Assembly: GCA_015039365.1 (NCBI GenBank)
Contig: WION01000009.1
Coordinates: 186,001 to 250,000 of the forward strand
DNA length: 64,000 nucleotides
Direction of reading: 5' to 3'
Source of the DNA: Amanita rubescens
Lineage: Eukaryota; Basidiomycota; Agaricomycetes; Agaricales; Amanitaceae
The stretch's first letter is position 1, and each line of letters starts with the position of its first letter. The position numbers and the translations under genes were made by a program. This document shows, piece after piece, positions 33,006 through 57,921 of this stretch. The notes under the pieces are model-generated. The model did not search any database, had not been told where the DNA came from, and saw only the letters and a list, made by a program, of their open reading frames with translations.

Positions 33006-33532
33006 TCATGTTGGTGGTTTGGTTACGCTACAAACACAAAGTCCTTCAGACATTCGGTAATGAACCATGCCGGTACAGTCTGTTACGCGCTGACCAGGTT
33101 TTATGGCACCTCTTTCTTTAGGTGATGGATCATGTCTGCCAGGGCGACTTGAATGGTAACAGTATTTTCTTGCTGGCTGTCCACAGCAAGGAAATGCTAT
33201 GTATCTTTACATTGCTAATAGCCTTTGCTTCTATGATCAGGGTAGGGGGAGGCCTGTGAGGTGACAGTGGAACATAGGTGGATGCAACTTCTGTGCTACA
33301 TACAGTAGAAATTATTAAGAAACAATATTTAGGCAGAAGTGGATGGGAAAGACAGTACAACAACTTAGGGAAGGCATAGGAGAGAAATGGCCTGGCATAA
33401 ACATGAAAGATATGAGAAGTATTGGCAAGACAGTGGTAGCCAATTCCTTGAGGCCAGTGGTACAGTGCATCCTATGCTCTATAGAAAAATTAAGCATACA
33501 TTTTCATTTTGTAAATTAAATATGAAGTACCA
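33006..33532. other. Intergenic, AT-rich flank of GTPase gene 1
   Basis: Marks the transition to the AT-rich block. I see no gene; short open stretches are low-complexity. Confidence 0.3.
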
Positions 33533-36500
33533 TCAAATGGAGATAATTTGATCATACAGGAATGCCAACAAATCTTCATAATTAGAGGGTATAGACTCAG
33601 AAGTGATCTTCAGCTTCAGCTTCTCCACATATCCTTGCCTCTTGAACTGCTTGAAAGTGTGCATGACTGATTCCTGCAATGGCATCACAACCCAAAATGA
33701 TTGCATAGCCATGATATTGATTGCTTTATAATGTCAGCTAATGACACATGAATAAAACATGATATGTTACCAGCTAAAATTTGGTAGGATGTAGGCTGGT
33801 TTAAATGCTGTCAAATGGGTGTCACAGAAGCAAAGGTAACTTTTACACTTGTGGAAAACTCAGTTGACAAGTTTAATCCTTCTCCAAACAAATGGAAAAA
33901 TCTGGCCTGGTGGGAAGGAAAACTTGGAGTAAGCCTTTCATATTGCATTCAATATTGGACATACAGCCTGACATGCAATTTAATAAGTCTTTTGATGACT
34001 GCACTGCCATTTCTTACCTAGAAAAGGTGTCTAGAAGCAGGCATAGAGCTACATAATAGCTATCTTACTATCTAGAGATGATAATAGTGTCACTGAGAAA
34101 GGATAATTATGTACTAGTGCAATGCCACTCACATCCTGTTGGCCATTGGATGAGGAGACTGCTAGCAAAATAAGGGCAGTGTCACTCACTGGCTGTTGGT
34201 AATGGGATTGAATGTGATGAGACTGTATGGCAGAAAGGGCAGTGTTACTCACACGCTGTTGGCCATGGTATGAGATGCAATGAGACTCCCTAGCAGGAAA
34301 AGTGCAGTGTCACTCACTTGCTGTTGGTCACAAGATCAATATGATGAGAATTCATGGCAGAAAAAAGGGCAGTGTTACTTGCATACTATTGGTCATGAGA
34401 TCACACATGATGAGACTGCCTGACAGGAAAAGGGCAATGACACTCACATACTGTAGGTCATGGGACAATACTATGTGATGACACTGTCTGACAAATACAA
34501 GGGCAATATCACTTAAATACTATTGGTTATTATGAGATGGATAGGGTGTGATAAGACTGCTGCAAATAAAAGGCCATTGTCACTCACATCCTGTTGGTGG
34601 TGAGATGAGATGAGATGAGATTGCCAAGCAAATAACAGGGCAGTGTCACTCACTCGCTGTTGGACATAGTAGGATGAATGTAACAAGACTGCCTAGCAAA
34701 TACTGTGAAAGGGCAATGACACTGACAAACTGTTGGTCACAACATAATATGTGATGAGATGGCCCAGAAAGAAATGCAGTGTCACTCACAAGCTATTGGT
34801 CATGGGATGAAAGATGTAATGAGACTGTCTGGCAGCAACAAGAGCAGTGTTACTCACTTGCTGTTGGAAGATGTAATGTGATGAGACTGCCTGGCAATAA
34901 AAGATATATGTTGCTTACTCGCTGCTGATCATGGAATGAGATGACCTTACAGAAAAAAAAGCAATGTCACTCACATCCTGTTGGTCATGGGATAAGATAA
35001 AATGAGTAGATGAACAAATTAAGTGCAGTCTCACTCACTTGCTGTTGATTATGGAATAAGATGTGGTGAGACCATCTGGCAGATCAATAGAAAGTGTTAC
35101 TCACAACCTATGACCATGCCAGTGGGAGTGAGATGTGATTAACCTGCTTGTCAAAAAATTACAGTATTACTCACAGACTGGCATCATGAAATTGGGGTTC
35201 ACCAATCTAGTACTATTTCAATGTCACTTACCCACTATAAAATTTGGCATTAGACTCAGGTGGAGCATAGTGTAACTCACATTCGGGTTCTTCTGCTGTT
35301 TCACCTGCAACATGACTTAAAACCACTTGGGACAGAAGATATACAGTGCCACATACTTTCTGCTCATGATATCATCCAAGCACTTCATTATTATATGATT
35401 CAACTCACATCCTGTTCAAGTTGCACATTGTTCAAACATGTTCAATGGTCATTAATATGAATGAAGCCTACATTTCTCTGAATCTGTCCTTGACTCAGTC
35501 TTGTGCACATTTATATCAGAGCATATTTGATTTACCCAGTAATGTGGAAACTTGGTGAGAACAATGTCAAACACTGCAATCAAGCACAGGCCTTCCAGAT
35601 TCAAGACATGTCTGAACTGTCAATTTAATGCAATTCCATTTAATATGTGATTCTCACTGAAGTGCAGATTTAACACAAAGATCTAGGTTGTTCATCTGTG
35701 TTAAAATTAACTGATCATGAAGACTGGCATCATTAATTGCATCCAGTGCAGTCTTCTTAGGCAATTCGTGGCAGTTTGTCTCTGGCTTGTGCATATCTGT
35801 GAAACAGCATTATATCTATTTTTGAGTAAGAAATAAGTGCCATTCTCACCTTCCAATGTCACATATGCTTTTGGAGGATATTTTGTGTTCATGACTCTAG
35901 AAACATAAACTTGCTGCAAAGTGTTTTCAGCATTCTGCCTGGCCTTCATCAACTTATCTTTCCAATCCTTTATATCAGATAAATTGGCATGTTCTTGGAT
36001 TACTAGCCCATCAAATTTGGTGAAGATAGCCACCAATGGAACTGTGAAGATATCATTTACTGGTCAGTAAGCAGTAGAGAGCATGGAATTCAAGGCCATC
36101 ATAAACATTTGCATGGTTAATTGGCAGAAGATTTGCCAAACTCAAATCCACACTACTATGACAACAGATACTTTGTCACAAGACTTACCTTTGCCTGTCC
36201 CTTTGCTAAAGAACTGAAGTTCTACAGGTGCAAGAGGTTGGGAACTGTCTACAGGTATGCAGTACCTATGAGAAGCTTAGTCATGTGGCAGTCATGTAGA
36301 GAACCAGTGCAAAATACCAAATGGCATGCAGCTGGTCTTTCAGATCTGTTGCAGCAGACCGTTTCTCAATGAATTTCCAAATAGATTCCATCTCCTTAAC
36401 TGAACCAGGTTTGAAACCAGGAGAGTCATGGAAGATAAAGTCACTTCCAGGATAGGTAATCTGGTGTTCAATATTGTGTATACCTCTCTACAGATTTGTG

Positions 36501-36866
36501 TATCAACTATGGAGTCATCCCTATTTCACCATTTGGCTCACCTCCATTGATGGTGTTAAATGAGAAGATGCTGATTGTCCACCCAGAAGTTGCCGCAGCT
36601 TGTGCCACATGATATTGAGTTTATCACCATTCTGATTGTATATGATGGGTTTTGTTCCCTGTGCTATGCCACAAACTTTCTCAAGAATAGTTGTCTTGCC
36701 CGCATTAGCCCTTCCTATGATAAGGATGCGAAAATGAGGGCATCTGTATTGCTCCTGGAGCACTGCAAAAGCTGCTGTATCAATGTCTTGACATGCAAAA
36801 GTTATTTTTATCAGGTTGTGCAACACATTTTGGTCTATTGGATAGTATACCTGCAATCCCTGCCAT
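33533..36866 (-). CDS. GTPase gene 1 with single-codon exon array
   Basis: P-loop GTPase of a fungal family I cannot name. The start ATG at 36864-36866 (MAGIA) joins VLQEQYRCPHFRILIIGRANAGKTT (G1). Next come HQITYPGSDFIFHDSPGF (G3 DSPG), FSKGTGK, VPLVAIFTKFDG (G4 TKFD), YPPKAYVTLE and DMHKPETNCHELP, then AVFDIVLTKFPHYW ending on a phase-0 donor. Downstream lie 21 three-nucleotide exon candidates plus one of 12 nt. A 60-nt phase-0 exon ends FSTS. One CTG triplet follows, then the C-terminal exon FKQFKRQGYVEKLKLKITSE and DLLAFLYDQIISI, with TGA at 33533-33535. It is paralogous to the gene at 42342-48172 in every part. One donor, after the triplet at 34517-34519, reads TT instead of GT. The function of the protein is unknown. 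Confidence 0.7.
33765..35414 (-). repeat. Tandem intron-like array A (21 triplet exons)
   Basis: On the minus strand, units of about 45-75 nt begin GTGAGTGACACTGC and end in CCAACAG-like acceptors, with exactly three bases between acceptor and next donor. Triplets, sense strand, by lowest plus-strand coordinate: 35409 GAT; 35357 AAA; 35232 TGG; 35175 TCT; 35105 GTT; 35039 CAA; 34975 GAT; 34919 CGA; 34858 CAA; 34790 CTT; 34727 TTT; 34654 CGA; 34588 GAT; 34517 TAT; 34448 TAT; 34383 TAT; 34318 CAA; 34253 CGT; 34190 CCA; 34133 GAT; 33771 CTG. A 12-nt exon candidate is at 35281-35292. No triplet is a stop. Donors: 19 GT, one GC (34383), one TT (34517). Confidence 0.85.
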
Positions 36867-38218
36867 GCCGATGTTCTGCTAGAGGTGTCTAAATGGAGGG
36901 GACAATATGAGCAGCTGTCTGTCCGGCTCGAGAGATGGTGCACAAGACGGGATGGTGTGCAAGGTGGGCGGTGGTAGGTTGCGTCGAGAGATGGTCCGCC
37001 GGGTGTCAAGTTGGTAGTACGTGCGCAAGTTAAAGGTGAGAGTGCACGGCGAGCGATGGTGCTTGGAGATTCGAAGTCACGAATGCGCGAAGCAACCTGA
37101 TTTATAATTCCGCTAGAATTATCTAAGCCTTGGGCGTGATCGATTCCGGCAATTCCCCGACGCGTCTTTCCATCTTTCCTTTCACTCCTCCACCTCGTCG
37201 TCGCCAACCCTTACACAGTCTCATCTTTTCTCACCCACCCCCCTCTCCCTATAGGTCTGGGCAGCAAGCCCGTTGGCATGGGTCCGGCCCGACTTCTGAG
37301 GCCTTTCCGCTTTCGGGCATTTCCAGGCTCCACACGGCTTGCCCGCTTTCGGCCTTCTCCAAATGGAAATGCCACGCGATTGCGCAAGGCGGCTCAAGAT
37401 CTCAGCACTCGCAAGCTCGCTCAGCATCTTACATATCAATACCTTGTGCCCTCCACTCTTGGACCCTAGACCTCGCAGCCATGTCATCCTATATTGCTAT
37501 CTCCGCCTCTACTGTTTACTCCACGGTCGGCGAGGTTTGCTCAGCTCGACTACCCATCCGGCGCCAAGCTTCCATAACTCTAAATATCGGATTATCCAGC
37601 CTCGCATTTGTTCCTATTCTTGGAACGAACTCCATCCCCTCTCGCGGCCCGTCTCAAAAGTCCATTAACTTGTACTGTCTATGTCCTCTCGGCTTAACCA
37701 GTCAGCCAATTACATCTCTCCATCCGCGGTCAATATCCTGCCCAAGTCTGCCTTGGTAGCCAATACCACAAATGGACTCTGCTCAGACTCCGTTCGCTGC
37801 AGAGCTCAAGGATGGGATTGAACTTGGGATCGTACTCGCGGACGACGACAATTCGGTACTTGACCATGGCGGCCGCGTGCGACTGCTGGAATGGGATGCG
37901 TGGGGCGCCGGAGGGTTCAAAGAGGTAGCTGCTTGGTTTGGCTCGTCTCCTGACCAAGAGAAAGAGGACCCAAAAAATGTGCGGGGTTCACGGATGCTAG
38001 GTGGAAGTATGTCATCTGATTGTAAATACCTTCGTTCTGCCCGGTGGCGGAAGGCTCAGTGCATCCTGCTTTCACTCCCACGACGGATGTCTCGAGTAAA
38101 TTTGTATCATTGAAAGGCGGAATCAAGGTTCATTTGCAAGGATGAACAAAACGATATGTTGGTACAAAATGAAACGAAACCATGAGCGAATAATCTATTG
38201 TACAACAGCGTAATAATA
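36867..38218. other. Spacer between GTPase gene 1 and the MFS gene
   Basis: The first 300 bp is the C/T-rich (in gene sense) leader of GTPase gene 1, with short repeats of a CACCATC-type motif. A plus-strand open frame at 37772-38113 (MDSAQTPFAAELKDGIELGI) has no recognisable relatives and no intron support; it may be chance. The longer plus-strand frame at 37130-37759 is compositionally biased and probably non-coding. Confidence 0.3.
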
Positions 38219-40170
38219 CTAAGTCGTTGATTTCCATGTCTGCAATTCCGTCGATCGATTTCCTCCTGGTTTGGTATGACATTTGGGCAACAACGATGAC
38301 GCACACAACGCCATTACTGCAGTACAAATGAAGACAAAGTAGACCATATATCCGCCGAGATACCCTTTGTCTATTGACAATGAAAAGAGAGAGTTGGAAA
38401 TTGCAGGGGCCATAGCGCTCAATACGCCCGCCACCATCTGTTGCGAAAAAGTTCAGTTCACAGTATTTGACTGAAGAAACCAGGGCAACACACTTCACAA
38501 AAACCGAGTACTGCGGCACGGCTTCCATACGATTGGGTAATAAAAACTGAAATTGCAACTATATTCACATTTAATATGATGTGACCTCATCAGCGTCGCT
38601 AAACATGACTTACGCCACGCAAATTCATTCAAAACTGAACAGCAAACTTGAGCGGCAAGCCCAAACCACACCAAACCACTATAGCCATCTCTCCTCGCAA
38701 TCCAGTTCATCAAAGGCCACAACAGGAATTGTGGGATTGATGCTGATAAACCGAGGGCAAAGACATACTTCGAGCCCCATTTGTCATGCACGCGAGGGAA
38801 GACGAACAGCTGGGATATGCCCATGACGGCAGAGCGGATTGATGCAAAGGTGCCAATAGCGCGTAGTGAAAGACCAAGGCCTCCATCTTTTATAGGCGTG
38901 GAGAGGTACAGTACTTCGGTTTCAGAGTAGAACGCCTGTACAAGATAGATCGACGATAGATTGATGGCAGCAATGATGATTCCGGGAACGAAGATGGCGC
39001 GCAACGATAGTGGCCTTCTGGCACTTTCGTTCCCCTCATCCATTTCGGATTGATGTGTTTTTTTCTTAAATAAGCTGGAAAGTGGCAATGGTTTTGCCAG
39101 TGTTTCTCTCAGGTAGATGGTTCCAACTAGCCAAGCAGTAAGTAACAATGTGGCGCAAATGGCGCAGGGAAGGACATAAGGATATTTCTGAAGAAATTCG
39201 CTGGAACCAAATAATTGTGGAAATTGCTCAACAGGTCTTGAGAGAGATCCGCCGATCTTGGACCCAATCTACGGTGGAAACTTTCGAACGTGCGCGCTTT
39301 GCAGAGATGGTAGGACTCACAATTCCCGACAGGTAGTACGACATTTCATAGTAGGCTATTGCCTACTCTCCGGGTCGCCGATCAGGAATTTATCTTGATT
39401 CATAACCAAAGACATACTCGTGCAATATCCCTTGAGTCTGTCATCTCAGCCATCATGCTGCATTAAAAAATCACAACGGTGAATTGCGCGCTTCCATGAG
39501 TTGACACCGTCATCTAACCTTCTCGTCACTCCACGAGTGCCCTCTGAGATTCAATGTCAGATGTTAGGCGTGACTGCAGTTATGAAAGACTTACTAACTG
39601 TACCGATCAAAGCTTGCCTGGACATCAAACGATCAAGAACGTGGTGTTAATACAAGCGTCGCACGAACCAAAAAATAAGAGCCCAGAACGTCGTCGAAAG
39701 CCCAAAGCCGCTGATGAATACCGACAAACCGAGTGTACAGGCAAGGAACACAAATTTTCGGCCCATTTGATCGGACAGCCGAGAGAGATAGAATGTTGTG
39801 GCCGTTTCAGCAGCATATAAGGTGGACATCTGTTGTTTTGTCTCATTCAAAGACTCCAGATATTAAAGGATGATGACAGTGACACCCACCAGCAACCCGA
39901 CATAATATCCCACGTCTTTCTCCTCTTCTGCTACCCCGATACTTCGAATTAACTGAAAGTAATGTTCTGGGACCGCAAATTTCAAGACAGTAAGGAAGTC
40001 CGTACGTCCGGAATGAAGGTGCGTGTGGCGAAAGACGGCAAATATTTCGCAGTTTGCACCGCGAAGAGGATTGAAAGCTGGAACCATGGAAAGGGCTTCT
40101 GATAAACACGCTCACGAGGTTGCTCAGCATATACTAAGAGAGGATCTTCCTCTTCTTGGTCAGTCGTCAT
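38219..40170 (-). CDS. Major facilitator superfamily transporter (drug:H+ antiporter-like)
   Basis: Twelve-helix transporter. The start opens MTTDQEEEDPLLVYAEQP, then FPWFQLSILFAVQ, EEEKDVGYYVGLL, ATTFYLSRLSDQMGRK (MFS signature D-x2-GR-R/K), SMMAEMTDSRDIARA, GIIGSKIGGSLSRPVEQF, LPCAICATLLLTAWLVGTIY, a cytosolic loop, FVFPRVHDKWGSKYVFALGL and a last helix YMVYFVFICTAVMALC. About ten in-phase introns are needed; the middle exons are short and the joins less certain. The general pattern is that of fungal MFS proteins related to plant ZIFL. Substrate unknown. It lies between the two GTPase paralogs. Confidence 0.72.
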
Positions 40171-40689
40171 GGCCAGAGGGGAGAAGAACCAAGATGGAGA
40201 GATGCCTCGTGCCAGACCGCAGGTTCAACGTAAACCGTGTGACGTCGTGTGAATGACTAAGCAGCGCGCTTCTCAATTTGGACGATTTCTCAGACTCCTA
40301 CAGCTATAATCGCCGAGAGCGGCACTGGTGCCGCAAGTCCCGCTACGTTTTTAACAAAAGTTGCTTGCAGACCAAAACTTTATTTTACATAGAGAAGACT
40401 AGAAACAAACGTAATTTCATCATGTACACGTCGTCCAACATGTCTTGTGGCTCCTTTTCCTCGACCGCAACTTGCAGTTTTTCTTTTCCTTTTCCTTTCC
40501 CTTTACGCATTTCAAAATGTTGGTTTACTCAGGCCCGAGACCTGCGTCTTGCGACCTCTCTATCACGCCGTTCACTAGCTCACAAATCATTTTTAACTTC
40601 AACATTACTCGCTTTTTCTCGTCCAACGCCACCATTGTTGTATTCACCGCATTCGGTCAACCCAAAGAGGACGACAGCGAGCAGAACGA
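40171..40689. other. Intergenic, no supported gene
   Basis: An open plus-strand frame covers much of this stretch but is low-complexity (Phe/Ser/Pro-rich, as expected from reading the reverse of a charged sequence). No family recognised. Confidence 0.25.
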
Positions 40690-41890
40690 AGAAGACGAGC
40701 GTCAACCAGTCGAGGTAGTCACATTGGCTTCACTCGCGGCGGGTTCGAGGTTGGCTAGTTTGGCGATTTCTTCGTCGAATAATTTGCGAACGGCTTCTGG
40801 GATTTTGAGCACTGCAGCACGTTCTGTAATTTTTTTGATTAGTTTGTCTTTTCCGTCGCTCTCCATGCCGAGTTCTGTCTTGATCCCTTTGATCGCATTG
40901 TCTCTTTGCGATCTTGCTATCAATATCCCTGCTGAGCGTTGATAAGCTCTTTTTTGAGGACGAGAAGAGCTTTTCGGAGATGATCCTCAACTATGAGGGA
41001 TTCAAGTACATCCTGTAACTCCTGGACTTCACCTGTAGAGACTGCGGCGACGAAATCAGCGACGCGACCTGATTGATGGAAAAGTTGGTAATCTAGTCAC
41101 GGAATAATGGGTTCAACTGGGCGATGTCCTTGAAAACCGACATGATTTCTGACATGAAGGCGCGAATGTACTGGTCATCTTTGTTGTACGGTTGAGTGAT
41201 AGATTCTTGACGCTGACGACGGAGACAGTGTGATTGTATAAGAAGGACGTCTGAATGGGACCTGCATAAGCGCGAGTGAGGTGGTGACCTGAGTAATGAT
41301 TTTTGTTGAACATACCGGTAGAGAATTTCCAACTTTTGACTTTCCGGGGAAGGTGGGGCGGGTGGTGTTGGCAGCTGGGATTTTCCATCTGACGTCTTCG
41401 ACTGTGGCTCAGTCTGGACATTTACCATACTCGACGGTCGACCTGTCTGCATGAGGTCCGTAATCCTGATCCTTCTGTGGGGGTATAAAACTGCCGTCAA
41501 GCCCGCTTCCTGTTTTTCACCTGGTGCACCGTTCGGGTCACGCGAGGACGGGGCGGTGAAGACACTCGACTTGGTGAACCTGATTGATGTCCGTTATAAC
41601 GTCCGCGTCCGTGTTTTCATCCTTGAGAAGGAAAGCGATGAGATACGGTTGGCCGCGTTTCATCATCTCTTTGATGGCAACGACGACCGCTTTATAAAAG
41701 CCCGAAAATAGTGGGCGACGGGCAATTGGAAGTGTGAGGACTTGTGGATAACTTTTGGGACAGAGTTTCTGGCTATGAAACCTGATGGAGGACTAGAGGA
41801 AGATGAAGGTAGCGCAGCGGGAGGTGGGATGGAGGTTCGGTTGGAGTCACCGAAGAAGAGGAAGGGGAATCCTTGTGCTCGTCAGTTTAA
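40690..41890 (-). pseudogene. Mitochondrial LON protease N-terminal remnant
   Basis: Pieces of the LON (Pim1) substrate-binding N-terminal domain: [133 protein letters not shown] and [19 protein letters not shown]. Frames change several times; short segments are missing (for example after KIAKRQ), and the copy ends just before the AAA+ ATPase. No catalytic Ser-Lys domain is present. Non-functional remnant of a gene that must exist elsewhere. Confidence 0.8.
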
Positions 41891-42341
41891 TTGTTTTCAT
41901 GAATAATCGTGTATCTGGAACGTACATGACTGTCCGGGTCAACAACACCATCATGTTGACGCGTTATCTGCTACATCCTTTCGATTGGCGGTTATGATCG
42001 ATCGCATCCCGCAAAGCAAGTGGGTGACGTGACGGTAACGAATCTCACGTGACCTCGATCACTGGCTGGTTGGCTTAGCGGGAATGCCCCACCCGCTATC
42101 GGCCCGGTTTCCAAATTGGGCAAAGGTGGCAGGAGTTCCCGGGGTCCGTACAGTTAGCTCGCACGATCCCTTGCCCTTGCACGCTCATCACTCGGGTTTG
42201 ACACACCATCGTCTCGCTCGCGCCCTCAACTCTCAGGCCAAACTTACTGGCTCTCGCCTCGCAAACATTCATCTCTTGAGCCTGACCCTTGCTTTCAACC
42301 ACTAGGCACTTCGCCACAATCCCTTCCTGCAAATATCGGTG
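41891..42341 (+). promoter_or_regulatory. Upstream region and leader of GTPase gene 2
   Basis: GC- and C/T-rich for about 250 bp before the ATG at 42342, in contrast to the AT-rich gene body. It contains CACGTGA and GTGACG-type short motifs near 42020-42055. No separate gene. Confidence 0.35.
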
Positions 42342-45300
42342 ATGGCAGAGATTGCAAGTGCACCTGCATCCAGTAAGTCAAAATATTGTCTGAACTCCAC
42401 CAGAACTTGACTGGTTCTTCACTGATCCAGATCCGGAGGATATTGCAAAGCTCAGGGAGCTATACAAATGTCCCCATTTTCGTATTCTTGTTATTGGGAG
42501 AGCTAATGCAGGCAAGACAACTATCCTTGAGAAGGTTTGTGGTGTGTCAAAGGGAACAGAACCCATCATTATACTTGACAAGGAGGGTAAGTCAAATTAA
42601 AGCACAAAATGCTTCAAAGTTTCTCATATTTAGTGACTTTTAGGTGATGAGCTGTTGCCTTCTGAGACAAACTTTGCATCATCAATTGATGTGAGCTAAA
42701 GGGTGAAAATGGATGCTTACTTATATGCATTAAATTGTCAGAGAGGAATGCATAATATTGAGCATGAGATTACATACAGTGGAAGCAACTTTATCTTCCA
42801 TGACTCTCAAGGTTTTGAATCTGGTGCAAAGGAGGAGATAGACATTGTTTGGGACTTCATTGAGAAGCGGTCTGCTGCAGCTAAGCTGAAAGATCAGTTA
42901 CATGCAATTTGGTATCGTTCATTTGTTCTTTGCATGAATAACTAATTGAACTGTCATAGGTACTGTATACCCATGGATGGTTCTCGCCCCATCCTGCCTT
43001 CAGAACTTGAGTTCTTTAATAAAGGGACAGGGAAAGGTAAGTCATCTGCTGGCAAGATATCTTTTGGCTTCTTTTACTTACCAATCCACAGTTCCCTTGG
43101 TGGCAATATTCACAAAATTTGATGGTCAAATAACTGGAGAATCTGAAAACGTGATTGATATGGAGAATGATGAAGCTAGGTGGGACAAAGCTAGGGAGAA
43201 TGCTGAAACCACTTTTCAGAGAGGTTACCTTCCTAAAATCTTTGGTACTCAATATCCTCCAAAAGCATTTGTGCGCTTGGAAGGTGAGGATCATGAATAT
43301 TTCTGGCTGTAAGATAAGGATAATACATTCAAAAGATATGGACATTCCAGAGAAGGACTGTCCTGAACTGATTGAGAAGACTACTGATGCAATTGATGAT
43401 GCTGGTCTACAAGAACTATTTGTCTCAACACAAATGAACAATATTAATCTTTGTGTTAAATTTGGACTTAGGTGAGTATTACATTAAAATTACAATTTTG
43501 TTGTTGACATTCTTTAGACATGTCTTACGCAAAAAGGAATTGCCATTAGAAGCTGTTTTTATCATAGTTCTCAGCAAGTTTCCACACTACTGGGTATTTT
43601 ACAAAAATATTTACATATATGTAGAAATGCTGAGCTGAGAGCAGGTTGACAGAGAAGTGTGTTGTTAATTCAAATATGTGGCAATAATGATGGTATTGTT
43701 GGATGCTTAACTAGGATGTGAGTTACTGAATACCCTTCATGAAGTACTACTGTATTAAGCACTATCATAACTAGGATGTATGTTGCACTATTTCTGGTTT
43801 GTGGAAGTCTGCTAATTTGAACTTGTGGCAAAAACCTCATATTAAGCAGCACAAGGCAGTTGATGTGAGTGGTAACATGAGCTTTCTATAGGCTGGCCTG
43901 AAGTCATAAACAACAGTGGGCAAGTGAAATAATTATTGGCTTTGATTAGGACTGATTTCATGACAAATAGTTTGTGAGTGATACTGCATATTTTCTGCCT
44001 GGATGTTCACCATGGGCAATAGGAAGTGAGTGACACTGCTGCACATTTTGTATGAGATAACATCATCTAGTCTCAATAAACAGAGGGTAAGTTACACTGC
44101 TATGATTTTTGAAAGCAGTTCCATAACTTTCTCATCCCATGACCAATAGGCAGTAAGTTTCAGCACTATTTAAGGAATTGCATGTCATGTTATCCCATGC
44201 CCCACAGGAAGTGAGTGACACTGCAAGCTTGGCAAGTCATCTAATGTAGTGCCATGGCCAACAGAGTGTATGTGACATTGTAATGCTATTTCTCTCCAGA
44301 TCTTCACATGGCCAACAGATTGTGAGTGACAATGCATGTTTTGTGTCAACCAGTCTCATTCCATTGCCAACAGGCAGTAAGTGGCACTGCACCCATCCCT
44401 CTCATAACTGTTTATTCCATGACCATGACCAACAGCGAGTGAGTGACACTGCACAGTTTTCTGCTGGGTTATCTCACCACACCTCTCATTACATGATGAA
44501 CAGGATGTCAGTGACAGTGCATGTTCATCACATTCAATTACATGATCAATAGGAAGTGAGTGCATTATAAATATCTGCCAAGCTATCTCAACACATCTAC
44601 TCCAACAGAGAGTGAGCAATTGCACTATTTCTGCCAGTAAACTCTAAGGTGATGTGCCACTGATAGCAAGTGAGTAACAGTGTATTTTTTCTTTACCAGG
44701 CAGTCATCATCAATTCTCATATCTTACCCCATGACAAACAGTTTGTGAGTGACACTTGCAATTTTTCTTTGTCAGTCAGTCTCACCCCATGACCAACAGT
44801 ATGTGAGTGACACTGCATTTTTTCTTTGCCAGGCAGTCTCATCACATACCAAAGGATGTGGGTGACAAAAACTACATTTTTTTCATTTCCAAGCAGTCTC
44901 ATGCATCTTTTCCAATGACCAACAGGAAGTCAGTGACAATACATGTTTTCAATTCCAGGCAGTCTTACCACATATTAAAGGATGTGAGCAACAATATGTG
45001 TTCTCAACCAGGTGGTCTCATAGATCTTTTCCCATGACCAGGGAGTGAGTGATGCTGGTTATTTTCTTTGCCAGGCAGTCTCATCTCATCTCTTCCCATG
45101 GCCAACAGGCAGTGAGTGACACTGGATATTTTCTTTGACATGCAGTCTCATCACATCTCTTCCCATGGCCAACAGGCAGTGAGTGACACTGGATTTTTTC
45201 TTTGACAGGCACCTCATCAAATCTCTTCTGATGGCCAACAGGAAGTGAGTGACACTGGATTTTTTTTTGCTAGGTAGTCTCATCACATCTCTTTCCACAA

Positions 45301-48172
45301 TGAATAGGGAGTGAGTGAATGTATTTTTTATTTGCCAGGCAGTCTCATCACACCTCTTCTCATATTTAACAGGAAGTGAGTGACACTGAACTTTTTCTTT
45401 GCCCATCTTCTCTCATGACCAACAGTATGTGAGTGACACTTCTTTGCTAGGCTCTCTCTTCTTTTCCCCTACCATGATCGACAGGCAGTGAGTGAGATAT
45501 TTTTTGTCAATCACATAGCTTCTCATGACCAACAGCATGTGAGTCACAGTCATGACACCACATTTTTTCTTTGCCAGGTGGTCTCATCATCTCATTCCAT
45601 GATCAACAGGAAGTGAGTGACACTGCATTTGCTCTTTGCCAGGGAGTCTCTTCACATTCCTTCTCATGACAAACAGTATGTGAGTGACACATGAATTCTT
45701 CTTTGCCAAGGTAGTCTCATCTCATCTCATCTCTTGACTGGCAGGGTGTGAGTGATACTGCATTTTTCTTTGCTAGGCAGTCTCATCACATTTCTTCCCG
45801 CAATGAATAGGGAGTGTGTAAATGCATTTTTTCTTTACCTGGTAGTCTCATGAGATCTGCTGTGATCAACAGTTAGTGAGTGACACTGCATTTTTTTCTT
45901 TGCCAGACAGTCCCTTCACATCTTTCCCCATGACTAACAGGCAGTGAGTGACACTGCATTTTTTCTTTGCCAGCAACATTGCTTCTGATGACCAACAGCA
46001 TGTGAGTAACACTGCATTCTGTTTTGCCATTCAGTCTTGTCACCTCATCCCATGACCAACAGGAAGTGAGTGACACAGCACTTTTGCTTTTCCAGCCAGT
46101 TTCATCATGTCTCTTCCCATGACCAACAGTATGTGAGTGACACTACTTTTTTGTTTACTAGGCAGTGTTATGACATCTCTTCCAATGACCAACAGTATGT
46201 TAGTACATAAGTTATAATACTGTATTTTCTTTGCAAATCAGTTTCATCACATTACTTCCCTGACCAACAGATTGTAAGTATCACTAAATCTCTACCTGGG
46301 AGTCTCATAACCTCTTGTTCTATGAAAAACAGGGAGTAAGTGTCACTGCACTTTTCTTGGCCAGGTAGTCTCACCATATCTCTTCCCTGACCAACAGATT
46401 GTGAGTATCACTGACTTTTCTTCCAAGCAGGAGTCTCATCACCTCTCATTACATGACCAACAGGGAGTGAGTGACACTGGATTTTTTTGCCATGCAGTTT
46501 CATCACATCTCTTCCCTGACCAACAGATGGTGAATATCACTGTTTTTTTCCACCAGGCCATCTCATTGCCTCTGATCTATGACCAACAGAAAGTGAGTGA
46601 TGCCACACTTCCATTAACTGGGCAGTCTCATCAACTTTTGTCATCCCACAACCTGCAGGAAGTGAGTGGAACTACACCTTTGTCAGCAAAGCAGCCCATC
46701 ATATCTCTTCTAATGATCAACAGAGGGTCAGTCATGTTTTCTGCCAGAATGTATTATCATACTATTTCATGTCATGTTCAACAGAATGTAAGTGATCCAA
46801 CTGCATTTCTTTCAGCCAGATAGTCTCATCCTTGCCCATCCCACATCAAACAGAAAGTGAGTGGTGTAGCCCTTTGTTTGGCCCAACAGTATCACATTTT
46901 ATGACCAATAGAGAGTTAGTGTCTGAGTTATTGTTGCATGAGCCACTCTTATCTCAGACTATCCCATGACTAACAGCAAGTGAGTGCACTGCATATTCTG
47001 CCAAGTAGTCTCATTGCATGGAAACAGCAAGTGAGTGACAGTGCTATGTTTCCTGGCAAGCAGCTTGACACATCCCATAATATCATTTGTGTTCAACAGT
47101 TTGTAAGTGCCATTATACTGTTTCTAGGTCATGTGGCTTATACATTTTATCCTATTGTCATTAGCTTGTGAGTGACACAATTTTTTCCACCTGGCTATTT
47201 AAACATGTTTGTTTTCCACAAACAACAGAAAGTGAGTGGAATTGCATTTTATTTTTGTGGCACTTTTTACTTGTGAATACAGAGAGTGAGGTAGTTGCAA
47301 TTTCTCCCCGAATACATTTTGATATGAGTTGGACAGGAAGTGAATGGACATTTGTTTTTCTTTGTGCAAAGTTTTTTTTTACAGTTTTACCACTATCACA
47401 GATTGTAAGGTCACATGTTCAGTTTTCCCACAGCTTCTTTCTGACAGCTTTTCCTGATATTACTGCCTTCTCTAGGTGAGCAATGACCATATATGAGTTA
47501 ATGATAACTATGCTAATTTACATTCAGCTGGTATGTTCACTACTGAGCCAAACTTGATCATTTCACACCTGTCATCAGCCTCAACTTGTCTCATTGTTTG
47601 AAGATGATTCAATAAAGTCCTCGCCAACTGTAAGACATTTGTATCTGTGGTGCACAATTAATATACTAATTTTCACCTCAGGTTGTATGCTTACCACTGA
47701 ATCTGACTTAATAATTTCACATTTTCTCATCATCATCAGCTCAAACTTCACTCTTGGTTTGGAGCATCAATAAAGTTTTCCACAACTGTAAGATTTGTCT
47801 CTACCACTGTGATGTTAAAATTGATGCTGTAATCAGCCTACATCATGTCAAATCTTAGTTGGTAATGTATCCCATTTTATTTAATTTTTTTTGGGTGGGG
47901 GCTAATATTTTAAAGCAATCAATATCATTGTCAAGATGTCATTTTGGATAATGAAGCCAAAAAATAAACCAATCCTTGCCAAGCTGTCATTTAAAAACAA
48001 TAAAATGCAGTCCTTTGAGCAATTAATCAGGGATGCTTTTGACCAGTTCAAAAGAGAAGGCTATGTGGAGAAACTGAAGACTAGCATTACTTCAGAGTCA
48101 TTGCCTTCTAGTGATCAAGATTTACTTGCATTTTTATATGATCAGGCATCTGATGGTATGCTCCATCAATAG
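42342..48172 (+). CDS. GTPase gene 2 with single-codon exon array
   Basis: Conventional exons: 42342-42372, 42404-42586, 42644-42690, 42742-42911, 42960-43036, 43092-43283, 43336-43471 and 43518-43593. They total 912 nt, exactly 304 codons, and end in phase 0 after LSKFPHYW. Motifs: G1 VIGRANAGKTT, G3 FHDSQGF, G4 IFTKFDG, then YPPKAFVRLE and DMDIPEKDCPEL. Next come 62 three-nucleotide exon candidates and one of 9 nt (43856-43864). Phase-0 exons follow at 47579-47629 (51 nt) and 47740-47787 (48 nt), a lone TTG at 47859, and a final exon 48011-48172 reading FDQFKREGYVEKLKTSITSE and DLLAFLYDQASD. Fully spliced, about 455 residues. The path between 47405 and 47527 is unclear. Family function unknown. 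Confidence 0.72.
43709..47867 (+). repeat. Tandem intron-like array B (62 triplet exons)
   Basis: Units begin GTGAGTGACACTGCA, carry a T-rich tract and GCCAGGCAGTCTCATC-like middle, and end CATGACCAACAG. Exactly three bases separate each acceptor AG from the next donor. Triplet starts: 43715 GAT; 43775 GAT; 43917 TGG; 43971 TTT; 44023 GAA; 44084 AGG; 44150 GCA; 44208 GAA; 44265 AGT; 44319 ATT; 44374 GCA; 44436 CGA; 44504 GAT; 44553 GAA; 44609 AGA; 44667 CAA; 44742 TTT; 44800 TAT; 44855 GAT; 44926 GAA; 44981 GAT; 45042 GGA; 45109 GCA; 45176 GCA; 45242 GAA; 45308 GGA; 45373 GAA; 45426 TAT; 45485 GCA; 45536 CAT; 45610 GAA; 45677 TAT; 45745 GGT; 45811 GGA; 45873 TTA; 45941 GCA; 45999 CAT; 46063 GAA; 46130 TAT; 46196 TAT; 46271 ATT; 46333 GGA; 46398 ATT; 46464 GGA; 46527 ATG; 46590 AAA; 46659 GAA; 46724 AGG; 46785 AAT; 46854 AAA; 46912 AGA; 46977 CAA; 47028 CAA; 47100 TTT; 47165 CTT; 47229 AAA; 47283 AGA; 47337 GAA; 47402 ATT; 47528 CTG; 47682 GTT; 47859 TTG. 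No stop codon. All donors GT except GC at 43920. Confidence 0.88.
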
Positions 48173-50473
48173 CTTACCCCACACATAGGATCAGCTCAAA
48201 TTTGCCACAGGATGAATTATCCCTCAGTGACCCTCACTGGGTGTGCTTGCTAACATATGCCATGATCTTTTTCTTCTTTTTGTGCCTTCCATTTTTGTAC
48301 CAGTAGCCCACTGAGCCCCTTTCTGTGACATACCTCAATATGTCTCCTGTATCAGTTTTTCATCATGATATACTTCATCAAGACAAAAGCTGTCTGCCAG
48401 TGAATACTTAGTTAACACAAATATGTTAAATAAATATAAATGGCATCATTGGGAGAGGTGACTCAGATATGTCAGACCACCCAGCACTTGATGGCCTTCC
48501 TTTACATTTTCCCCTATGTGCATGTGCTACACATTCATAATATGTATCTCTCCCATGCATGCCCAAACATTTTCAACATAGTTAGTAGGCAAGTGATAAT
48601 TTACTTGTTGGACTACTACACTTCATAGCCAAAAAGTACCATACATATTTGTTGTAAAGGTGAGTTCTGAGGGTAAGGAGCCTTCTCATAGGCTGATTGG
48701 GCATATCTATCCTTCATGCTGGATAGTAAGAAACTTGTCAGGCAACGTAACAGAAGGTACTTGATGTACCACCACTCATCTTATCAAGAACTTTTCCCAG
48801 GTGTAGGGATCATCAAGGGTATACCCCTGCCATTCCCTGACAGTCCTAGCGGGGGCCAGGTGTCATCCCAGAGGCATCTTGCAGCCACCCCCGAGCTGCG
48901 TAACTGACATCAAGGACCCTCTCACTGCACCTGCATACATGGCAAACTGCCCACTACATCCCTGAATGCCATATACTCTGTGGCTCCAACATATGAGTCT
49001 GGCACAAGAACATTCACCAACTTGAAACTGGGAATTTTGCCTACAACATTTGTGTCAATGTGCAGTTTTGGCTATACAGAAGATCATACATACCTTTGAT
49101 GATTTTGCAGAAAATGCAGGATGCAAGTGACCTGAAAGAAGATTCAGTCCCTGATATACATAGGATTGGCAACCAATGGTACGTATTGAGCAGTCTTCTT
49201 ATACCAATGTTCCACATTTGCTGCACCCCTGATCATTGTCTGTGTTGTAAAAGTCTTCCCCAAAGTTTGGGCCAGGACAATGCCACTACTGACTTTGCTT
49301 GAACACCACCTTAGCCCTTATCTGATTACTCCATGGCCTTGCAGCGCAGCATCCAGCCATCAACATGTGTAGGCTCACAGTGAATATGGTTGGGGCGACA
49401 GGTTGCACAGTTTTGGCCTGCCCAAGTTCTCGTAGATCCAACATATTTGCAGAGTCACCTGATATTTACAACAGGGACATCAGGAAGAGCTCCAGGCCAT
49501 GATGCAGATTCCATGTATGTCAGCAAATGCCAAACCGGGCTCTGCATACAGTTATGTACCACTTGTCAGTTGTGGGCCACTGCTTCATGTGGCAGAGTCC
49601 AATGTTACAAACTTGTTAATCTCAACCTAAGTTGCAACAGCAACTCTAGTCACAATTACAAGTCTAAGTCAAACATCAATTGTGATACAAGTTCAATACT
49701 AAGTTAAGACATTAACTTAGTATCTGAGGACAATTATGGTTGACAAGTTAAAGAGTAAGATTGAATTATTAGACTGCAATGAACAGCTAGCAATTAACAG
49801 CTAAGTTGAACTTAGGGTTCAACATGCGGCTTATAAACTTGTAAGTACAATGAGACATACTAATTAATACGAAAGTAAGTATAAGGACAGCATCATATGT
49901 GGAACAAGGGATTGGTATATTAAAGAACAAGCTTGTCTGTATGAATCAAGCATAAAAGGTGAGACAAGTATGGTAGGCATAAAGAAAATGACATGTCCAA
50001 CATATCATGTAATCATAATGCAGGAGTCTGTACCATGTTGTAACATCCAAGGCCAGCCTGCGCTATTGGTCATATAGCAGCATGGGTGTGGGTCAAACAA
50101 CAACAATATTCTCACAAATTACCATGTGCGGGCCGTTGTTTGGGATTTGGGTGTCTCACATAGAGCCGGTGAGTGTATGGGAGTGTATGGGTCTTGCCCA
50201 GGAGCACTTGAGCAGGAGTTGCCGTGCTGTTCCAAGGCCGTACTAGTGTAACAAAGGTCTCAGTTTTATGAGGTGAACAAAGAATGCTCTCTTAACATGT
50301 GGCAATCAAGCCGTATTACTACTATGTCAGAAGTATGACGGTCCATATTGGACAAAATTTGTTGCAGGTTGAAAATAGAGAGTGATCATAACTGTTCATC
50401 ATGAACAGCCATATACTGCATGAATTGCAGTGTACCAGCATGAATTGCAGTGTACTGGCATGAATCATCGTTC
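48173..50473. other. AT-rich gene-poor stretch
   Basis: 2.3 kb without a gene I can support. Open frames at 48716-48907 and 49060-49707 look like decayed transposon or retroelement sequence but carry no diagnostic motif. Around 50400-50465 there are two copies of a GCATGAATTGCAGTGTAC-like 20-bp unit. Confidence 0.3.
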
Positions 50474-51453
50474 ACATGCCAAACCGTGAACGTGAACCGT
50501 CGTGATCATGATCAGCTGACATAAGATTCCCACAACTCAGCTCAACACGAGAATGGGGAATTTGCCATGAGCTCCGAGTTGACTTGACATCTTAACAGTT
50601 ATCCAACTATCCGAATCAGCGGATGGACCAATTCTGAATGAATCTAGCAACTGATGCTACGGACCTGACCCCAAACGTGGGGAGGCCCTGTGTGGACATA
50701 ATACACCTGAACCCCTCTCTATCTCAACCGCACCTGGCCAGCTTTGCCTGGGTGAGACCGAAACTGAAGCAGCAAGTCCCACGGCCGATTACCTACCACC
50801 CAAATTGTCCATTCCTCAGGCCCTTTGATCTCACCTAACGACCTCCATGTAGAAGTAGCACTCAGCCGTGTACGACAAATGACTCTATTCAGTACTACTA
50901 TACCTGTAGAAGTAGCACTAACAAAATAAGTAACTAACACATAAGTAATGTACTCACCTCAGCCGTGTACGACAAACGACTGAGGTGTACTGTCCATACA
51001 AGCAAGCCACTAGCACCGGGAAATTAACTATACAGTTAATTTCCACCAGGAAGCATGACCAAATATGGAAAGTTGGATCAATCCAACTTTCCTGCATATG
51101 CGCCAAAGTGCTGAACGCTCATACAATGAGAGTACGACACACTGCGATTGCTTCCATATCCCATATACTCCAACACTCCAATGACTCACCCCCCTCTTAT
51201 TGAGTCTTGAGAGCGCCAGGACTGTTTGACTCACGATCGCCAATACCTAGTACTAGTCAACAACACGACTGCTTCAGTCCCTCCCCCCCAACCCTGTCCA
51301 GGACACCCAAGTCTCCCTGCACCCTCCCTTCTTCTCCGGGGTCAATGTTGTCGATGATGAGTGCTTGAGCCATCAGGCTAGCAGGCGCAGTTGCATGAGT
51401 GAAGTTATGTCAGCTGATCATGATCACAACGGTTCACGTTCACATTGGGCATG
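50474..51453. mobile_element. Inverted-repeat element (terminal arms of about 50 bp)
   Basis: The arm at 50474-50524 is nearly the reverse complement of 51405-51453; shared core TTATGTCAGCTGATCATGAT then CGGTTCACGTTCAC. The interior of about 880 bp has no transposase and includes a repeated CAGCCGTGTACGACAAA motif (near 50863 and 50959). No target-site duplication was found. Probably a non-autonomous element or a foldback remnant. Confidence 0.5.
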
Positions 51454-51485
51454 CTATCGACGAATCACGCCGTGACACTGATATG

Positions 51486-51573
51486 GTGATTCACATCGGG
51501 ACACGGTAATCCACTCCAGGACACGGTGATTCACGTCAGGACACGGTAACCCACTCCAGGACACAGTGGTTCA
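51486..51573. repeat. Short tandem repeat, 40-bp double unit, two copies
   Basis: Alternating 20-bp units of the form GTGATTCACRTCRGGACACG and GTAAYCCACTCCAGGACACR. The last partial unit GTGGTTCA is the left target-site copy of the hAT-like element, so the transposon inserted at the edge of this repeat. Confidence 0.65.
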
Positions 51574-51923
51574 TAGGGATTGGCTTGGGTGAACCCCTGG
51601 GTATCCAGATGCATACCCACACCCACACCCTGTGACATACCCATACCCTCACTCTGGGTATGGGTTTGGATCAGGGTACATGGCAAGCTGACCCATACCC
51701 ACACCCACTTCCATACCCACACCCACACCCTTATGGGTTGTACCCTTTGATGAAGGTAATGATATGTGTAATACAAGTTAGTTAAAATGAAAAAGAAAAA
51801 AACAACAACTAGTAATTGAAACTAAGGTGAGTCCCACCTTCCCTTTCCATTCAAAATGTGTCTGCTAATGTGTTTCCTCCCCACACCATATCCCATCAAC
51901 ATCCCCCTAGTCTAGTGCCCAGT

Positions 51924-52162
51924 TGTTAGGAGGTTATCCGCACACAACCACTAAGACACTCGATGATGGGGATGAGAACTTGGATTGTGTCTATGGACAA
52001 CAGAAACAATCGTAAGACTAAGGAACTAACCCAACCCTCAACCCTTATATACCTATCCACCTGCGGCTGCACAATCCTCATCCCGCGGATCGCTGACCTA
52101 ATCCCCTTAATACGCGGCTTAATACCCTTTAGATCTTAACACTTGTAAATACGGTCCTTACA
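51924..52162 (-). repeat. 3' LTR of the chromovirus
   Basis: Downstream LTR in element orientation. Its first bases, TGTAAGG on the minus strand, supply the pol stop codon. The purine tract AAAGGGAGATGG abuts it at 52163-52174 and is the likely plus-strand primer (PPT), lying inside the pol reading frame. Confidence 0.9.
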
Positions 52163-55100
52163 CCATCTCCCTTTCAGGATTCTCGTCTCGAGAATCAGCC
52201 TTCCCTTCGTCATTTTCTTCGTCGTCTTCCCAATCAATTTCACTTCGATCCCTCCTCCAATTAGCCCATCTCCGTTGCATGTTTTCCAAATATTCTTTAT
52301 CAAATTTCCCATCCTCCCATCCGAACAATTGCTTCGGCGCGCTAGTAGTCGTATAATTTTGATACGCCCTGAATTGTAAAGTCTCCCCTTCGGGTATCCG
52401 TCGCGGAGCGTTGGGTTTCTTTTTATGAAACTGAGCTACCTTTTTACTAGCGTGTTCTAAATTGTCTACCGGCTCCCACGTCGCCTCCTCATGAGGGTAT
52501 CCTTTCCATTTTACCAAGTACTCCAACCGTCCTTTACCTCCCCTCTGTCGACTATCAACTACCTCTTCCACCTCAAACTCCGTATCTCCCTTCATGTTCT
52601 CTTCTTCCTTACGTCGTTTATCCCATTCCTTCTCTCCCGCTTGTTGTTTCGGAAACTGGGCAGGTACGTAGGGTTTCAACCATATCTCGTTGAATACGTT
52701 GTAAACCTTCCATGCCCCTGGTATCCGAATTCGGTATGCCGATGCTCCCACCTTCTCGATAACCTCGTAAGGTCCTACGAACTTTCCTCCTAACTTTTTT
52801 GTGGTTCGTAGGGTCGGAAGATTCTGCGTACTCAGATATACCTTCTGCCCCTTCTTATACTCTCGTGAAGGTTGCTTTTTCACGTCGTATTGTTTTTTCA
52901 TACTTTCCGCCGCTCGATTCAACCCTTCCTTCGCCTTTTTACACGCCTCCGTCAACCGTTCAATCCATTCGTCCACCGCCACTACTTTCCTTTCAATCGT
53001 CGGCTCTACTCCCTTTCGTGGATGTCGTCCGTTGTTCAAAAAGAAAGGAGAGAATCCAGTTGCGGAATGAACTTGATCGTTATGACAGAATTGAGCCACC
53101 GCTAGCCAATCGCTCCAATCATTTTGTTGATGATTCACGAACATAGTGAGGAATTCCTTTACTTCTTGGTTTACTCTCTCCGTCTGTCCGTCCGTCTGCG
53201 GATGATAAGCCGTGGATGGATTGGCTTTTATTTTTAACGCCTCGTATAATTCCTTCATGAATTTCGATACGAATTGCGGCCCTCGATCACTGATTACCTT
53301 CTCTGGTATCCCGTGTTCCCTGAATACATGGTCTCTGAATAACGTCGCCGTTCCTTGACTGGTCAACGTGGTATTCGTTGGTAGGAAGAACACCTTTTTC
53401 GTAAAGCGATCGACGATTACCAAGACCGCATCATACCCTTTCGATTCGGGTAAAGGACCAATCATATCTATGGATATTATTCGCCACGGTCCTTCGGGAA
53501 TTTCGTTTGGGTTCAAGGGAGCCGCTCTTTTCTGTCTATCTGGTTTGACCGTTTGACAGACTCGACATCCTTTCACATATCTTTCTACATCCTTCCTCAA
53601 TCCCGGCCACCAATAATTTCGTAGTATCAGTTCGATCGTTTTATCGATTCCTGAATGTCCCCACGAATGGTGGATAGCCATCACTTCTTCCCTTAACTTC
53701 TTTATCACCGGCACATACACTCGTTCTCGCCACGTCACCATTCCGTTATTCTGCACCTTCCACCCTTCTTCGTTTTGTTCTATCGCATTCTTTATTTTCT
53801 CTTCCCATTGTCTTTTATTCGCTTTTTTTATTTGTATTTCTATCTCCTGTAACCCTCCGTCTTTATTTATCGTTCGTACGAACATTTCCTCTTTCAATAC
53901 TATCGTTCCTTCATTATCCGTTTCTCCTTTGTCGAAATCAGCCCTCCTAGATAACACATCTGCCTTTGTGTTGGTTTTACCCGGTCGATGTTTCAGCGTG
54001 AAGTTATACTCCTGTAAATCTAACACCCATCGCGCTTGTCGTCGATTTATGTTCTGGGCCTTGCGAAAGTAGGTAAGGTTTTGATGGTCCATCAAGATTT
54101 CGATTGTTTCTTCCGTTCCCTTCAAGTAGTGAGACCATTCGTATAAAGCGTGCATTATTGCCAATAATTCTTTGTCATACACTTCGTAATTTCTCTCCGT
54201 CGGGTTTAACGATTTCGAAATAAATGCAATTGGTCGCCATGTTCCATCCGGTTGTTGCTGGGATAGTACCGCTCCCATTGCGAAATCAGACGCGTCCGTT
54301 TCTACCCGATACTGTCCTTTGTCTGCCGGTATCGCTAGTACCACCTCTTCTCCTATCCTTATCTTCAACCCTTGGAACGCTTCTTCCTGCAATATCGTCC
54401 ACATCCACTCCTCCTTTCCAGTCAGCTTCGTGAGGGCTTTGGCTATTTTCGAGAATCCTCGTACGAATCGTCGGTAAAAGTTGACAAAGCCTAAGAACTG
54501 TTGCACTTCTCTCTTGTTCTTAGGACGAGGCCAATCGAGTATCGCTTTCACCTTTGCTTTATCCATCCGTATTGAGTCATGTGATATAACCAATCCCAGA
54601 AATTCGATCGTGTCTTGGTCGAACCAACACTTGTCCGCTTTTAACGACAACTTGTAACGTTCCAGTTTTTCCAATATTCGTTCAACATGTCGTCGATGTT
54701 TTTCTTTATCATCCGAAAATACAAGTATGTCGTCCATGTAAATTACCACCCATCCTTCCGCTATTTCTTCTCTAAACATATCGTTCATCATGGTCTGGAA
54801 TGTCGCCGGGGAGTTCGTCAATCCAAAAAACATTACTAAGGGTTCGAATAATCCCCTATTCGTTCTGAACGCCGCTTTCCATTCATCTCCTTCTTTTATC
54901 CTTACGTTATTGTACCCCCATCGTATGTCCATCTTAGAGAATATTCGAGCGTGACTGAGACGATCGATCAGTTCCGAAATTAACGGGAGTGGATAGCGGT
55001 TCTTTATCGTCATCTCGTTTAATTTCCGATAATCCTGTACTGGTCTTAATTTCCCATCTTTTTTCTTTATAAAGAAGAAGGGTGATGCCATTGGGGATTT

Positions 55101-57577: not shown

Positions 57578-57907
57578 CTCTTCTTATCTTCACAGGGACA
57601 CAGGGAGTTCTGAATACTGTGTGTTTGGTTCTGGCTCGTCTTCTCCTATGGATCGAATAGGTACGCCTAAACTCGAACGTATCGTAGTTTTACCGGGATT
57701 ACAACTCTGAGTTTAGAGTAATCCCAGCCCTGTCTCGTTAACCCTCGAGTCCGGGTTTATCAAGCGGTGGTGGATACGCGCGATGTGCAGCGTGAGGAGG
57801 TAGATGTATCTGGAGTAGGCTACTAGCGCTATCAAGCGCAGCAGTCGTCGAATTTCGTATCTGTCCGTCATGGGCAACGACGAGCAGGCGAGTGTGGTAG
57901 TGTAAAG

Positions 57908-57920: not shown

Positions 57921-57921
57921 A

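Follow-up and report, generated by a model that had tools for sequence, protein, structure and literature searches.

Single-codon exon arrays probably encode a variable linker in a GTPase gene family of Amanita rubescens

A gene on the plus strand of the window, the 64,000-nucleotide stretch of Amanita rubescens DNA analysed here (part of contig C776 in the 75.7-Mb genome), carries a long run of exons of exactly three nucleotides between its GTPase domain and its C-terminal exons. Such arrays recur in a large gene family, and we are highly confident that they consist of real exons, mostly of a single codon, which are spliced together in their genomic order and yield, after translation, a linker from the GTPase domain to a C-terminal helical domain. 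Judged from matches between genomic DNA and transcript-like proteins, single-codon splicing is evident at one locus and nearly completely so at a second, and by homology it would extend to the window gene. Splicing would here be pushed to the smallest useful unit, at which single amino acids are gained, lost or changed with the frame intact.

The model of the plus-strand gene comprises 73 exons, 60 of which are 3 nt long (counted by profile chaining and by alignment to homologous transcript-like proteins), in a single open frame of 474 codons with GT/GC-AG at all junctions. Eight GTPase exons are followed by exons of 12, 3, 3 and 15 nt, by 55 exons of 3 nt, by three more exons of 3 nt encoding E, I and L, and by three longer exons. 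The introns measure 46-72 nt with the exception of two of 123 and 207 nt close to the 3' end, and the median intron in the array stretch is 61 nt. Spliced alignment to the protein P0044 placed the GTPase exons at 42342-42372, 42431-42586, 42644-42690, 42742-42911, 42960-43036, 43092-43283, 43336-43471 and 43518-43593. They total 885 nt, not the 912 nt given in the earlier note, and end in phase 0, as stated there, with the residues FPHYW. The domain contains the P-loop GRANAGKTT and a TKFD motif, and its PF01926 score of 20.3 bits lies just under the Pfam cut-off of 21.9.

The spliced alignments and the gene model then give a 12-nt exon (VDRE, 43645..43656), two 3-nt exons of GAT (D) each at 43715 and 43775 (span 43715..43777, gene model) and a 15-nt exon (HKAVD, 43850..43864), so that two very small exons besides the triplets belong to the run. 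The 55 consecutive 3-nt exons, with introns of 46-72 nt, occupy 43917..47285; they come from the profile chain, and both ends align to P0047, the middle doing so with gaps. Their residues read W (43917) F E R A E S I A R D E R Q F Y D E D G A A E G E Y A H E Y G G L A H E Y Y I G I G M K E R N K R Q Q F L K R (47283). The single GC donor of the array, already noticed earlier, stands after TGG at 43,917. The final 3-nt exons GAA (E, 47337), ATT (I, 47402) and CTG (L, 47528), span 47337..47530, extend the protein to ..REIL according to the spliced alignment and the model; since the intron between I and L is 123 nt long, a small exon may have been overlooked there. The three longer exons, all placed by spliced alignment, are a 51-nt exon, PQLVSLFEDDSIKSSPT, at 47579..47629, a 25-nt exon (PTSCQILV) at 47837..47861 and the C-terminal exon at 47916..48172, which ends in SFEQLIRDAFDQFKREGYVEKLKTSITSESLPSSDQDLLAFLYDQASDGMLHQ and a stop; this last exon, whose final few residues are uncertain, is also based on the model and the alignment to P0047. 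The linker region is exemplified by the peptide DWFERAESIARDER. The single-codon run accounts for about 70 of the 474 codons, and the GTPase and C-terminal parts are encoded by ordinary exons. The modelled protein is 59% identical to P0047 over 471 columns, with gaps mid-array. A search for a transcript of this gene itself found none, and its splicing is assigned by homology.

The module of one codon plus an exon of about 50 nt stands twice in tandem after the array (47,528-47,788). The second copy, seen in the sequence and outside the model, consists of GTT at 47682 followed by LKLHSWFGASIKFSTT and spans 47682..47788, its end being approximate. From sequence alone, PQLVSLFEDDSIKSSPT and LKLHSWFGASIKFSTT could be a mutually exclusive or alternative exon pair. 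The earlier note had counted 62 three-nucleotide exons; the single-codon run stands, with 60 as its number. Among the triplets of that count, the one at 47,859 is really the end of the 25-nt exon and the one at 47,682 is the codon that precedes the possible second copy.

A second array gene, absent from the earlier note, lies on the minus strand of the window. Its GTPase exons (35536..36866, bounds set by hand and start approximate) end with FPHYW in phase 0 and are 95% identical to the annotated partial Amanita rubescens protein F5887DRAFT_1258347. The profile chain gives at least 20 units of 3 nt at 34069..35411 (20 called, with two wide gaps), which read D K W S V Q D R Q L F R D Y Y Q R P D I, and spliced alignment places C-terminal exons ending ..YVEKLKLKITSESIPSNYEDLLAFLYDQII at 33542..33901. 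Its PF01926 (MMR_HSR1) score of 26.3 bits exceeds the cut-off of 21.9. In a Pfam scan confined to the two GTPase parts, PF01926 alone was found, with no NACHT and no ankyrin.

The regular placing of the splice sites differs sharply from chance. The tandem AG-triplet-donor sites described in the earlier note are present: the pattern [CT]AG-NNN-G[TC][AG][AGT]G[ACT] occurs 49 times in 43,601-47,500, whereas 1000 dinucleotide-preserving shuffles of the same interval averaged 1.2 and never exceeded 6. In 43,600-47,950 a spacing of three bases between acceptor and donor yields 51 sites, and every other spacing from 0 to 30 yields 0-5. When strict sites within the fetched arrays were counted by exon length, with copies omitted, 525 had 3 nt, 13 had 6, none had 9, four had 12 and six had 15; every other length up to 14 nt gave 0-1 each, and lengths of 16-30 nt gave 0-20 per length. 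As first observed, none of the triplets in the window gene is a stop (0 of the 60 modelled, the frame remaining open for 474 codons), and across arrays not one of 743 distinct triplets is a stop (nor of 1008 when copies are included), against 49 expected from position-specific base use, while similar sites outside the array chains include 21 stops in 335 (6.3%). Profile chaining returned one stop in 801 distinct units (in L010 and its copy L011), a TGA four bases out of register from AAA. The codon CAG is missing from the arrays (0, vs 82 CAA), which fits avoidance of an extra AG, since a second AG would confuse the acceptor. The third base is C in one of 743 triplets; a C ahead of GT would create a CpG, and the CpG ratio of array introns is 0.02.

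The arrays form a family across the genome. The genome has 93 exact matches to a 21-base motif in which the triplet is left free and none to its reversed control; exon-level GTPase matches number at least 294, which is not a gene count. We fetched 23 regions, 20 around GTPase loci, one at a dense motif cluster and two for the protein P0122. All 23 loci and both window genes contain the TKFD and FPHxW motifs followed by a triplet run, that of L024 stopping after 11 units. Independent genes are fewer than 23, since several loci are near-identical copies, probably alleles. Eleven arrays have 33 to 98 called units, which are minimum numbers because of gaps in several chains; this range indirectly supports the earlier proposal that gain and loss of units change the protein by single residues. 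Among 39 clusters of a longer motif, a GTPase exon lies on the same strand within 7 kb upstream in 30 and within 15 kb in four, and the remaining five have no upstream GTPase exon among the matches listed. At C3:116,361-126,936 (L024, L002) an array is interrupted by about 10 kb and is continuous on C268 (L025); the break is probably an insertion within the array on one haplotype. On the minus strand of L025 (9,237-9,938; also L004-L006) a further unit run (DPQLQYPQPQQF..) stands after the 98-unit run, and the two runs of L025 might together form a single array of more than 130 units, or the further run might belong to a second gene.

Inclusion of the triplets in mature messages was assessed with transcript-like proteins. 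The JGI contigs behind them are shorter than the genomic span they cover and too short for introns, from which we infer that they are derived from RNA. P0122, a 285-aa ORF on a 1099-nt contig, matches C328 (L031) at 161 of 163 residues from VLSKFPHYW to the protein end, over 3.5 kb of genome. The alignment passes through 40 exons of 3 nt and exons of 6, 9, 12, 15 and 30 nt, in order and gapless, with a score of 767, compared with 545 ± 9 (maximum 568, n = 30) when the array residues were shuffled. Of 36 triplets called at L031 independently of the protein, 34 coincide with P0122 exons; one of the other two is a neighbouring triplet and one is the end of a 15-nt exon. The GTPase part of P0122 is 98-99% identical to copies at C23, C67 and C289 and 94-95% identical to the minus-strand gene at C328, and therefore P0122 comes from an allele or strain not exactly represented in the assembly. 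The P0122 array fits the C67 copy more poorly in one stretch.

The second case is P0024 (478 aa on a 1486-nt contig), whose genome relative at C1 (L009) is 86% and 90% identical in two listed exons. Blind-called triplets at L009 agree with P0024 at 40 of 47 positions (score 212; shuffles 27 ± 7, maximum 68 in 10,000 shuffles), and spliced alignment yields 46 three-nucleotide exons with 69 of 85 residues identical. Three gaps of double width remained after the blind calling, and at these places or beside them P0024 has three additional residues; two of the gaps proved to contain units (2,730 and 3,202), and the third (3,431-3,555, with units near 3,472-3,555) was not cleanly resolved, nor were the last units ahead of the C-terminal exon. 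Thus tens of 3-nt exons, 40 at L031 and 46 at L009, appear in sequence of presumably messenger origin, and the view that the protein middle is spliced residue by residue, together with the transcripts containing the triplets that the earlier note had asked for, gains support from two proteins at two loci of the genome, P0122 at C328 and P0024 at C1, with the window gene joined to them by homology. A tandem repeat with chance splice motifs was ruled out by the spacing, the absence of stops and the transcript-like proteins.

Other proteins fit less closely. P0018 scores 236.7 against L012 (shuffles 168 ± 7, maximum 182, n = 30), with 64 of 97 residues identical and messy stretches. P0018, P0019 and P0085 depart from the expected protein upstream of the C-terminal domain, and from their sequences either some molecules may not be cleanly spliced or the assembly may be bad. 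Free spliced alignment to the window DNA gave 227 for P0044 (shuffles 173 ± 7) and 213 for P0047 (165 ± 9; n = 20 each); though above shuffles, these alignments do not follow the array middle and so carry no unit-level evidence; the alignment of P0047 to the modelled protein takes their place. The array part of P0044, used by itself as a query, retrieved just P0044 and P0047, and searches with P0079 and P0085 gave no locus above about 90% identity among the matches listed.

The whole array, or most of it, might instead be removed as one long intron, which would join the GTPase exon to the C-terminal exons and make the triplets by-products of a repeat. An array-less form is predicted in P0083, an annotated A. 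rubescens model in which FPHYW is joined almost directly to the C-terminal domain, the array being skipped in frame. In addition, among 130 homologues (annotated models and metagenome fragments), 80 are without FPHxW and 32 of the 50 with the motif end within 25 residues past it. Against this, in the five transcript-like proteins P0024, P0044, P0047, P0079 and P0122 FPHxW is separated from the C-terminal domain by about 50-80 residues, and two of the five match the triplets at a genomic locus; moreover, there are no stops, and short exons of a length not divisible by three hardly occur. We consider removal as a single intron very improbable overall; as the sole form it is refuted for the gene at C328 and for the C1 gene's relative, although an alternative isoform of this kind could still exist. 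Many public Amanita models of the family probably lack the linker and the C-terminal domain, and with the counts above many of its members are probably truncated in public annotation.

The in-order joining of exons that we favour leaves the question of which units each molecule includes. Codon subsets might differ between transcripts and so give many linkers per gene: the reading frame survives the skipping of whole units in any combination, and the precedent in Tuber melanosporum is described, in the passages that cite it, as alternative splicing. However, P0122 skips no unit over its 40 three-nucleotide exons, and P0024 skips none, one unresolved place aside. Unit inclusion thus ranges from all in P0122 to none in the annotated P0083; these are few molecules, with room for other isoforms, and P0018 is too divergent from L012 for unit skipping to be judged. 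We regard combinatorial splicing as rather unlikely.

Comparison of 12 arrays revealed where the codons vary. Agreement between arrays is 0.42 in the first 16 units vs 0.21 after shuffling and 0.207 vs 0.142 in the last 10 units, and it equals the shuffled value in the middle (0.271 vs 0.273), indicating that the array middle is without conservation. The introns behave differently along the array. Six arrays were compared in this respect. In five of them, adjacent introns at the array ends are about as unlike as chance (roughly 0.5-0.6) and many mid-array introns are 0.7-0.9 alike, up to identical in L029; similar introns of this kind are missing from the sixth, L009. Codons do not follow this similarity. 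Among 15 arrays with 706 units, copies left out, 130 pairs with a core-intron identity of at least 0.9 share the codon in 14.6%, against a composition baseline of 8.9%; sharing of about 86% would be expected at 0.95 identity had the codons changed like the introns. Where 38-40 of 40 flanking bases are equal, the codon is shared in 20 of 96 pairs (baseline 8.3%). The array of L029 (C439:982,500-988,490) is the youngest-looking; its codons for Tyr, Glu, Ser, Asp and Ile are flanked by introns of up to 100% identity.

This decoupling bears on two further explanations. Introner-like spreading introns could have been inserted between the codons of a once ordinary exon, as the similarity of mid-array introns and the low codon sharing between similar pairs (14.6% and 20 of 96, as above) would suggest. 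Yet blocks duplicated with their codons exist in L029 (D-I-S / D-I-Y-S), and insertion precisely at every codon boundary needs a separate explanation. Moreover, unlike introner-type mobile introns, which are near-identical and sit in many unrelated genes, a 22-base intron piece lacking the triplet has all 11 of its 11 exact genome matches inside known array clusters, so this one subfamily, by exact matches, is not seen in other genes. We consider spreading introns a doubtful origin of the arrays. Alternatively, targeted hypermutation might change codons unusually fast and spare the introns, which would also decouple the two. Near-identical copy pairs taken as alleles (L013/L015, L019/L020, L025/L026 and L016/L017) differ in 2 of 516 triplet bases and 37 of 10,873 intron bases, an equal rate, indicating that the triplets are not simply hypermutable; a tenfold rate predicts 17.6 triplet differences (P = 4e-6). 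The pairs L010/L011, L013/L014 and L021/L022, with zero differences, and L014/L015, which repeats L013/L015, were left out of this count. Hypermutation is therefore highly unlikely, and our preferred reading is that selection varies the codons while conversion or renewal keeps the introns alike.

An AlphaFold2 model of P0024 built from 27 sequences is confident for the GTPase part and for the helical part at the C-terminus. Most of the array (from W327) falls within residues 317-359, where pLDDT values are below 50, and a confident helix follows at 361-382; the variable part is therefore predicted to be, probably, a flexible linker. A Foldseek search of the model against the PDB gave as top matches a bacterial dynamin-like protein and the immunity-related GTPases GM4951, Irga6 and Irgb10, with E values of 1e-5 to 1e-3 and 10-13% identity. 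As the TM-scores are just 0.2-0.4, these matches are a lead on the architecture, at best a GTPase plus helices, and make no family claim. By sequence, solved structures yielded nothing beyond weak matches to small GTPases (best E 0.0018).

Both array genes of the window lie in CpG-depleted stretches, 33,000-36,900 and 42,300-50,000. The CpG ratio is 0.025 in the plus-strand array, 0.059 in the minus-strand array and 0.17 and 0.09 in the two GTPase parts, compared with 0.96-1.01 in 1-33,000 and 37,000-42,300 and 0.88 in 48,800-64,000. The ratio drops abruptly at the promoter sides and around the minus-strand gene; behind the plus-strand gene it is still 0.16-0.18 for about 2 kb, to about 50,000, and then rises. 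This pattern suggests that cytosine methylation aimed at a repeated GTPase gene family may lie behind the CpG loss.

Based on these results, we propose how an array would be expressed and evolve. The pre-mRNA would lose dozens of introns of about 60 nt, each taken by the spliceosome as a unit (intron definition), for which exon size would hardly matter. Two adjacent introns are presumably not excised simultaneously, because an exon of 3 nt is unable to hold the factors for both sides at once. Over evolutionary time, as the comparison of loci suggests, mid-array units would be duplicated and lost, adding or removing single residues in frame, and selection would maintain variety among the middle codons and conserve those at the array start. 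The outcome would be a large GTPase family with common framework ends and a hypervariable, probably flexible linker. More speculatively, and in our estimate improbable as a whole, the arrays might act as a built-in diversity generator, in which conserved end codons enclose a hypervariable Gly/Gln-rich loop and units are duplicated, shuffled or skipped codon by codon with the introns kept alike, giving a GTPase recognition repertoire somewhat like antibody CDR loops, possibly with codon choice at the RNA level. A spliceosome able to join dozens of one-codon exons in a row tests models of exon recognition, and the arrays offer a frame-proof route for changing protein length by single residues.

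The micro-exon genes of schistosomes have exons mostly of 6-36 nt and encode secreted proteins, with short symmetric exons over most of the coding sequence. They resemble the present genes in their many very short exons with lengths that are multiples of three, which permit in-frame skipping, whereas here almost all tiny exons have 3 nt, lie in a GTPase gene and cover only about 70 of 474 codons. The MMR_HSR1 or fungal 'G domain-containing' GTPases (PF01926) are the family of the N-terminal domain, a membership that is silent on the array. The P450 genes of Phanerochaete chrysosporium, likewise a basidiomycete with small introns (45-55 bp) and small exons, have microexons of 2-10 aa and a shortest exon of 6 bp (PMC1184071); in the part of that source consulted they are scattered over the genes and tandem single-codon arrays are not mentioned. 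Within the open-licence part of the PMC literature, we found no report of single-codon arrays in GTPases, Amanita or other basidiomycetes. The closest precedent is in Tuber melanosporum, whose nank (NACHT-ANK) genes are described in citing passages as having codon-sized 3-bp microexons and alternative splicing (Iotti et al. 2012, cited in PMC4986451, PMC3689799 and PMC10197012), so that the earlier statement that no fungal case was known is too strong. As far as those passages tell, both systems occur in a fungus, in an expanded P-loop NTPase family and with tens of codon-sized exons in the variable part. The Tuber genes encode an NLR-type receptor with NACHT and ankyrin domains in an ascomycete, whereas the present ones encode a GTPase in a basidiomycete, and the alternative splicing described there contrasts with full inclusion in the clearest transcript here. 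What is new relative to Tuber is therefore the other phylum and protein family, the up to about 100 units per run, the full inclusion in that transcript and the decoupling of codons from intron similarity. By analogy, the two cases suggest convergence on codon-sized exons in expanded P-loop families, GTPases in Amanita and NACHT proteins in Tuber.
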